DNA from: Nannochloropsis oceanica
Lineage: Eukaryota > Sar > Eustigmatophyceae > Eustigmatales > Monodopsidaceae
NCBI GenBank assembly: GCA_004519485.1
Contig: CP038124.1
Coordinates: 228,387 to 292,386, forward strand
DNA: 64,000 nt
Reading direction: 5' to 3'
Both the position numbers and the translations under genes were made by a program. Shown in pieces: positions 13,693-15,060 of this stretch (within the stretch, counting starts at the first letter, position 1; each line of letters starts with the position of its first letter). Below the pieces are notes generated by a model. The model was not told where the DNA came from. It saw nothing but the letters and a program-made list of their open reading frames with translations, and ran no database searches.

Positions 13693-15060
13693 ATGCGCTT
13701 CACCGCGACGGTGCTGCTGCTCCTACCTGCGGCCTCGCAAGCTGTGCATCATTTTAAGGAGCTCAACAGCATTCAAGACTTGGAGTTGCTGGGCCTGATC
13801 AACAAGGATAGAGGCATGGCCCAGAAGCACCTCCTCCTCGGCTTCAGCAACGCGGAATGCGTCGACAAAGTGCGCAACGTCGGCTTTCCTTACGATTACG
13901 CCGCGTTGGGGGAGCACGTGGAGACGGGGGAAGTCATGCTGGAACGGGACGATGAGCTCGCCCGAGCGTATAACATCACGGAGTGCAACCAATACGTTTA
14001 TGTCCCCCGTGGCGGCGACGTCCGCACCGACTTTGACGTGCTTAGCGCCCATGACAAGCTGCAATTGCATAATTGGCTTTTTACGCACCTGGCTATCGAG
14101 ATTGAGATTGTAAATGACTTGCCTTTTGACGTCTCGATTAAGTGGGAGGACACCGGCCGCCGTGAAGGCCCACACGATCTTATCGCCATCCCTCGGGGGA
14201 AGTCAGCCTCGGTCCACACCTTTGAATCGCACCACCTTCGCTTCGTTAGCCACCAGCCTGGGGCGGGGTCGGAGACTTTCTTGCGTGTGCGTGTTGATGG
14301 GTCAGAGACGACGTTGCGGCTTTCGGATTACCTTTCTAATGACGCTTCTAGGCAATGTGCCAATCCCCTCGACTGCTCTGCAGGTGCAACGGGCGCACTG
14401 CCCAAGAACGTGAATAACGAACATGGGTCCTCGGATGACATCCAAACAGCAGTGGAAGATATGGAAATCTGGCGAAATCGAGACAGCGAAAACCGAGCCC
14501 GAGTCATCCGCAATGAAAACCAACCACAAACCAAACCCCGGTACACGCCATTGGGCTTCAAAAGAGCGCGTATTCCCGACGATATCTACAAAATGATGCT
14601 CCATAGGTACAATACCGGCGAGCGTATCTCGGAGCCATGGCCTAAATCAGATTGTCACACCAATTTTTTCGAGGCCCCCTCCACGATGGTCTACCTGACC
14701 GACGCGGAAAAAAACCAAATTTTCGCGGCAATGAAGCCGGTTCTGAGTGAGTGGGCGGGGGGGGTGAACTTATTTCCGACTTCTGTGTATGGTGTGAGGA
14801 TCTACCACAACGGTTCGTGGTTGAGGGAGCATGTGGACACGGGGGACACGCACATTATTAGTGCCATTATGAACATCGCTCAGGACGTAGAGGAGGATTG
14901 GCTGTTGACCTTTATCGACCACAATGGGGACAGGCATTTCATTACCTTGGAACCAGGGGATGCGTTGTACTATGAATCGGCCTCGTGCTTGCATGGGAGG
15001 CCTGTAGCCTTCAAGGGCTCTTTCTTTGCGAATGCCTTTGTGCATTTCAAGGTGGTTTAG
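13693..15060 (+). CDS. Secretory prolyl 4-hydroxylase-like 2OG-Fe(II) dioxygenase with VHL-beta-like segment
   Basis: Intronless, 455 aa. An N-terminal signal peptide (hydrophobic TATVLLLLPAASQA) suggests entry into the secretory pathway. Residues about 134-215 (IEIVNDLPFDVSIKWEDTG, an IPRGKS turn, then VHTFESHHLRF) resemble the beta domain of von Hippel-Lindau proteins; this is a pattern-level resemblance. Residues about 300-455 form the P4H catalytic core: VYGVRIYHNGSWLREHVDT supplies iron ligands His380 and Asp382, LHGRP supplies the distal His434, and the nearby Lys441 is the likely 2-oxoglutarate ligand. Such enzymes hydroxylate proline in collagen-like or HIF-like substrates using O2 and 2-oxoglutarate. 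Enzyme class is confident; the VHL-like part and substrate are not. Confidence 0.8.
   Translation: MRFTATVLLLLPAASQAVHHFKELNSIQDLELLGLINKDRGMAQKHLLLGFSNAECVDKVRNVGFPYDYAALGEHVETGEVMLERDDELARAYNITECNQYVYVPRGGDVRTDFDVLSAHDKLQLHNWLFTHLAIEIEIVNDLPFDVSIKWEDTGRREGPHDLIAIPRGKSASVHTFESHHLRFVSHQPGAGSETFLRVRVDGSETTLRLSDYLSNDASRQCANPLDCSAGATGALPKNVNNEHGSSDDIQTAVEDMEIWRNRDSENRARVIRNENQPQTKPRYTPLGFKRARIPDDIYKMMLHRYNTGERISEPWPKSDCHTNFFEAPSTMVYLTDAEKNQIFAAMKPVLSEWAGGVNLFPTSVYGVRIYHNGSWLREHVDTGDTHIISAIMNIAQDVEEDWLLTFIDHNGDRHFITLEPGDALYYESASCLHGRPVAFKGSFFANAFVHFKVV

Follow-up and report, generated by a model that had tools for sequence, protein, structure and literature searches.

A VHL-like beta domain and a 2-oxoglutarate/Fe(II) oxygenase-like domain in one chain of the microalga Nannochloropsis oceanica

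Introduction

In animals, PHD hydroxylates a proline of HIF and VHL binds the hydroxyproline, hydroxylase and reader being separate proteins that are joined by HIF. The gene described here lies in a 64,000-nucleotide stretch of Nannochloropsis oceanica DNA (assembly GCA_004519485.1, contig CP038124.1, positions 228,387 to 292,386 of the forward strand; hereafter the window, to which all coordinates refer) and encodes a VHL-like beta domain and a 2-oxoglutarate (2OG)/Fe(II) oxygenase-like domain in a single polypeptide. A preliminary description, made from the sequence, had taken this protein for a secreted prolyl 4-hydroxylase (P4H) carrying a VHL-beta-like segment; its observation is confirmed, and its interpretation is partly supported.

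Both types of domain are already known, and a related observation may reportedly be contained in the work of Iyer and colleagues (2010) on peptide-modifying dioxygenases. What is new, within the literature covered, is the pairing in one chain. No natural fusion of VHL with an oxygenase was described among the literature matches listed, which came from partial lists covering few subscription journals; the nearest match (PMC13223302), as far as the accessible part of that paper goes, concerns plants engineered so that proteolysis depends on a hydroxylase.

The gene and its protein relatives

The gene is real and conserved. It forms a single uninterrupted frame of 455 codons, within which two domains are the main subject:

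13693..15060, + strand: whole gene, fusion of a VHL-like beta domain and a 2OG/Fe(II) oxygenase-like domain, 455 amino acids (uninterrupted frame; orthologues)
14092..14340, + strand: VHL-like beta domain, residues 134-216 (segment model, Foldseek, VIA-align, profile comparisons)
14536..15057, + strand: 2OG/Fe(II) oxygenase-like double-stranded beta-helix domain, residues 282-455 (models and structural matches)

The search for orthologues that the preliminary description had proposed returned four close ones of 444-485 amino acids, spanning 98-100% of the protein (P0001 below) at 93, 87, 74 and 71% identity, the last being a hypothetical protein of Nannochloropsis gaditana. The same search gave one distant relative, P0006; a second, alignment-based search added P0009 and the very distant P0010, and a third, with P0009 included in the alignment, gained no further sequence. 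Paralogues were also sought in the N. oceanica assembly itself (29.3 Mb, 32 contigs), which encodes a full-length one, P0007.

A divergent VHL beta domain

The beta-rich segment that had been noticed at about residues 134-215 is borne out by modeling. In the full-length model its strands occupy residues 135-140, 146-152, 161-166, 171-176, 181-187, 194-200 and 207-209, and the expected Pro-Gly-type turn is the I-P-R-G of residues 166-169. The rows that Foldseek and VIA-align listed for the full-length model concern the oxygenase domain only, and the segment was therefore modeled alone. With only its own family in the alignment it reached a pLDDT of 85, with seven strands at matching places whose ends differ from those of the full-length model by at most two residues. 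When this segment model was compared with the PDB by Foldseek, all 50 hits listed were pVHL entries (best E 7e-4). The likeness to the beta domain of pVHL (PF01847), through which the animal VHL E3 ligase reads hydroxyproline, is thus that of a seven-stranded beta sandwich.

Profile comparisons point the same way. An alignment of seven algal segments (A3) was compared by hhalign with one of 20 VHL domains from planctomycete genomes (A4), where 42 of the 294 genomes searched had a VHL match. The probability was 96.5% (E 1e-9 for a single pair), over 51 columns in a register that fits the positions of Asn78, Trp88, the Pro-Gly turn, Ser/Thr111 and His115; in the control run, none of 200 column shuffles scored above 18.4, against 53.7 for the real alignments. 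The P0001 orthologues alone scored 32.7 (best of 200 shuffles, 21.6), and P0001 by itself reached 80% against the VHL profile. A profile of bacterial VHL domains was also used to rank the 377 stop-to-stop frames of at least 80 amino acids in the window and loci L002-L004: that of P0007 came first (14.7 bits) and 13693-15060 second (13.8 bits), followed by a piece of a third paralogue (4.9 bits). The segment's own score, 15.0 bits, was reached by none of 2000 shuffles, the best of which gave 11.8.

The profile check that had been suggested nevertheless succeeded only in part: P0001 does not match Pfam VHL at Pfam's own cut-off, and a Pfam scan of it returned two rows, both non-significant. The equivalent segment of P0007 scored 22.5 bits in the genome search, above the cut-off, and 19.2 bits (E 0.0012) by hmmscan, below the cut-off of 21. 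PDB sequence searches with P0001, P0006, P0007, alignment A1 and the P0009 segment yielded nothing meaningful. Fold, profile and pocket residues together identify residues 134-216 as a VHL beta domain of divergent sequence, as had been supposed.

The hydroxyproline pocket

In human VHL, the hydroxyproline site consists of Trp88, Tyr98, His110, Ser111, His115 and Trp117, and Ser111 and His115 bond the hydroxyproline hydroxyl, according to the part of PMC9528729 that was available. Three of these positions can be placed in the algal protein:

14143..14145, + strand: Trp151, equivalent of VHL Trp88, pocket wall (alignments)
14218..14220, + strand: Thr176, equivalent of VHL Ser111, hydroxyproline OH contact (alignment; role per the available part of PMC9528729)
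14230..14232, + strand: His180, equivalent of VHL His115, hydroxyproline OH contact (alignments; role per the same part of PMC9528729)

The equivalents of Trp88, Ser/Thr111 and His115 are retained in all seven algal segments and that of Asn78 in six. Trp151 and His180 are the sole invariant segment columns across the seven-member set, which includes P0009. Threonine, the residue of P0001 at position 111, is also found there in 18 of the 20 bacterial VHL domains. At the position of His110, P0001 and P0009 have His, and the remaining five segments have Asn, Gly or Ala.

The oxygenase domain

Judged from the model, the structural matches and the sequence, the C-terminal domain combines an oxygenase fold with an iron triad:

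14830..14838, + strand: His380-Val-Asp382, iron ligands 1 and 2 (HxD) (sequence, family alignment)
14992..15000, + strand: His434-Gly-Arg436, iron ligand 3 plus an Arg that 15 of 16 family members share (sequence, family alignment)

P4H and PHD2 are among its best structural matches, and it shares with PHD2 and with the P4Hs of bacteria and algal viruses the double-stranded beta-helix and the HxD...H arrangement; SnoN and halogenases are also among the structural neighbors listed. Both the HxD...H triad and Arg369 are retained in 16 of 16 aligned family members. In the four orthologues, 162, 155, 148 and 138 of the 174 residues are identical, which makes this the best-conserved domain in three of them; in P0002 the VHL-like part is slightly better conserved.

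Relatives in bacteria and phages

When bacterial and archaeal genomes were scanned, 17 stretches matched, seven of which (L008-L014) encode a relative of the oxygenase domain, with best segments 33-43% identical to that of P0001. In all seven, a canonical 2OG-FeII_Oxy_3 (P4H-type) domain, which P0001 lacks, precedes this homologous domain in the chain; conversely, no VHL hit was listed for the bacterial chains scanned. Hydroxyproline arabinosyltransferase (HPAT) and N-acetylglucosamine (GlcNAc) transferase domains are present in the same chain at three of the seven loci. These are L009, L012 and L014, from Gammaproteobacteria, where HPAT, GlcNAc transferase, the canonical P4H-type domain and a second oxygenase without a Pfam model form one chain that looks like a polypeptide making and glycosylating hydroxyproline.

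Among 50,697 phage records, 16 matched P0007, mostly cyanophages. In cyanophage S-SCSM1, a stand-alone gene for the oxygenase domain (L045:2977-3672) adjoins genes for an O-fucosyltransferase and another 2OG oxygenase. No relative was found in the viral contigs searched with alignment A2 and with P0009. The company of these domains is proline hydroxylation and protein glycosylation, and a substrate linked to proline or hydroxyproline is therefore favored.

What might the fusion do?

The architecture of the fusion is well supported; as to ligand and chemistry, we infer the following. The protein would be a 2OG/Fe(II) oxygenase of the secretory pathway that docks its substrate through a VHL-type beta sandwich, a reading to which we give about an even chance. 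The pocket formed by Trp151, Thr176 and His180 would hold a proline- or hydroxyproline-containing stretch of a secreted or cell-wall protein, and the C-terminal domain, presumably active, would then hydroxylate that residue or one nearby; a hydroxyproline already present would in this way direct further oxidation. In the bacteria, the hydroxyproline could be supplied by the neighboring P4H domain; in the alga, locating it could be the task of the VHL-like module. The preliminary description had suggested a module of hydroxyproline-reader type and, perhaps, processive hydroxylation; either may be so.

A more specific and rather unlikely version is that the reader binds a 4-hydroxyproline which a different enzyme has already produced, and that the oxygenase fused to it, of the type found behind a canonical P4H domain at the seven bacterial loci, adds a second oxidation to the same or a neighboring residue. 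Dihydroxyproline could be an example of the product: 3,4-dihydroxyproline occurs in diatom walls, according to the accessible part of PMC4557024. Diatoms are a related algal group; this is a lead only.

Why would such a protein matter? If this more specific reading is right, one enzyme would both read and write proline oxidation, with VHL-type reader and hydroxylase in one chain outside animals. A natural chain that pairs a VHL-type module with a P4H-fold oxygenase in a microalga, apparently in the secretory route, would point to an older or a repeated origin of the pairing and to a use in protein processing besides oxygen sensing. The locus also draws attention to an oxygenase branch that has no Pfam model, found beside hydroxyproline enzymes in bacteria and present in cyanophages.

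Alternative explanations

Several findings weigh against the docking of proline or hydroxyproline by a VHL-type module. In VIA-align, the luminal domain of HGSNAT scores equal to VHL for the segment, and a PDB sequence-profile search with the A3 segments listed antibody domains and no VHL. The segment could thus be another beta sandwich, immunoglobulin-like or HGSNAT-luminal-like, that resembles VHL by convergence. This is highly improbable given the uniformly pVHL hits among those listed, the in-register match over 51 columns and the failure of shuffled controls ever to attain the real score; the antibody result is weaker evidence than the fold and profile tests. The preliminary description had allowed that the segment might lack VHL similarity or match an unrelated domain better, and neither was found, although the HGSNAT tie and the antibody listing lean the opposite way. 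The pocket itself is altered. Position 117, which is Trp in all 20 bacterial domains, is Leu in five and Phe in two of the seven algal segments; no Tyr aligns with Tyr98, although the alignment is uncertain in this gapped stretch. The search for pocket residues thus recovered Trp88, Ser/Thr111 and His115 but not Tyr98 and Trp117, in which the algal segments differ from pVHL; as far as alignments can tell, this is a relaxed VHL pocket, with hydroxyl contacts kept and two walls lost. A beta sandwich descended from VHL might accordingly dock peptides or proteins generally, without reading hydroxyproline, while the oxygenase acts on another residue or a small molecule. This is less probable than docking of proline or hydroxyproline, yet a serious contender: besides the missing walls, peptidases too contain VHL domains (of 20 planctomycete frames scanned, 15 have DPPIV_N), P0001 lacks a 2OG anchor of the P4H/PHD2 type, and the oxygenase's structural neighbors extend to SnoN and halogenases. 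On the other hand, the residues retained in all seven segments are precisely the hydroxyl contacts and Trp88, two of the three being the only invariant columns, and the hosts of the DPPIV/prolyl-oligopeptidase family may themselves deal with proline. Hydroxyproline binding by the VHL-like pocket is plausible.

The name prolyl 4-hydroxylase fares less well. It rests on fold and iron ligands and is unproven: the C-terminal domain of P0001 matches no Pfam oxygenase model (PF13640 or related), and profile comparison with the bacterial relatives' canonical P4H domains gave no significant similarity (0.3%). P4H and PHD2 bind 2OG through an Arg or Lys at His+9/+10, where P0001 has Ser443/Phe444 and no basic residue; Ser443 takes the place of the PHD2 Arg. 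Of the "intact P4H catalytic core" that had been described, His380, Asp382 and His434 therefore stand and the 2OG anchor does not. Ser is also found at His+9 in P0002 and P0003; a basic residue occurs there in five of the 16 aligned members (P0004, P0005, P0006, P0007 and L009) and at +10 in none. Might the domain then be catalytically dead, and the protein serve the secretory pathway as a binder or chaperone? The scarcity of the basic residue speaks for this, but the constancy of HxD...H, Arg369 and Arg436 and the strong conservation of the domain among orthologues make it improbable. With the triad and these arginines conserved, 2OG may be held otherwise. The preferred reading is an oxygenase that is probably active, and whose substrate may be proline or hydroxyproline.

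N-terminus, N-terminal domain and linker

The remaining features are the following:

13693..13743, + strand: hydrophobic, signal-peptide-like N-terminus, residues 1-17 (sequence and hydropathy; end set by eye)
13744..14091, + strand: N-terminal domain, residues 18-133 (low-confidence model)
14341..14535, + strand: linker, residues 217-281 (full-length model: pLDDT below 50 up to residue 267, helix 253-275)

The hydrophobic N-terminus noted before is borne out by a best 9-residue Kyte-Doolittle mean of 2.5; the same measure gives 2.1 to 2.9 in P0002-P0007 and P0009, and in P0002, P0007 and P0009 the first residue of the stretch is number 27-37 of the available sequence. The 455-amino acid protein is probably secreted. 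Unlike pVHL, the algal module sits in an enzyme with a secretion-type N-terminus and an oxygenase in the same chain. Residues 18-133 have an order of elements compatible with a degenerate thioredoxin fold in a low-confidence model that does not establish the fold; the structural match to thioredoxin was non-significant (E 1.8, third of three rows), and no CxxC pair was seen by eye. Nor was a VHL alpha domain seen by eye after residue 216, as pVHL would have, no search being aimed at an Elongin C box; a link to Elongin or ubiquitin is therefore not expected.

VHL domains and paralogues elsewhere

The planctomycete proteins resemble the algal one in that a VHL beta domain serves as accessory module of an enzyme, here a DPPIV/S9 peptidase instead of an oxygenase. 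The 20 frames scanned (L015, L025, L026 and L028-L044) include 15 of the DPPIV/prolyl-oligopeptidase family; ATLF and M90 metallopeptidase domains occur once (L040), and the VHL match of L015 was listed by the genome search only. Unlike the algal segments, all 20 aligned domains retain Tyr98 and Trp117, as well as His115, and these proteins are possibly hydroxyproline-guided peptidases. The genus Litorilituus (Colwelliaceae) we take to belong in the Gammaproteobacteria. The lack of any VHL match in 369 gammaproteobacterial genomes is not to be taken as absence, because the available part of PMC9002001 describes a VHL-domain protein from this genus.

Two further paralogues are found in the N. 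oceanica assembly. In P0008 (L003:715-2142), DUF4286 (E 3e-14) precedes the oxygenase domain, and this protein gave no VHL match. The third (L004/L006) has an interrupted frame in which HGD replaces HVD, and a VHL-like stretch with the Ser...His spacing can be discerned in it by eye.
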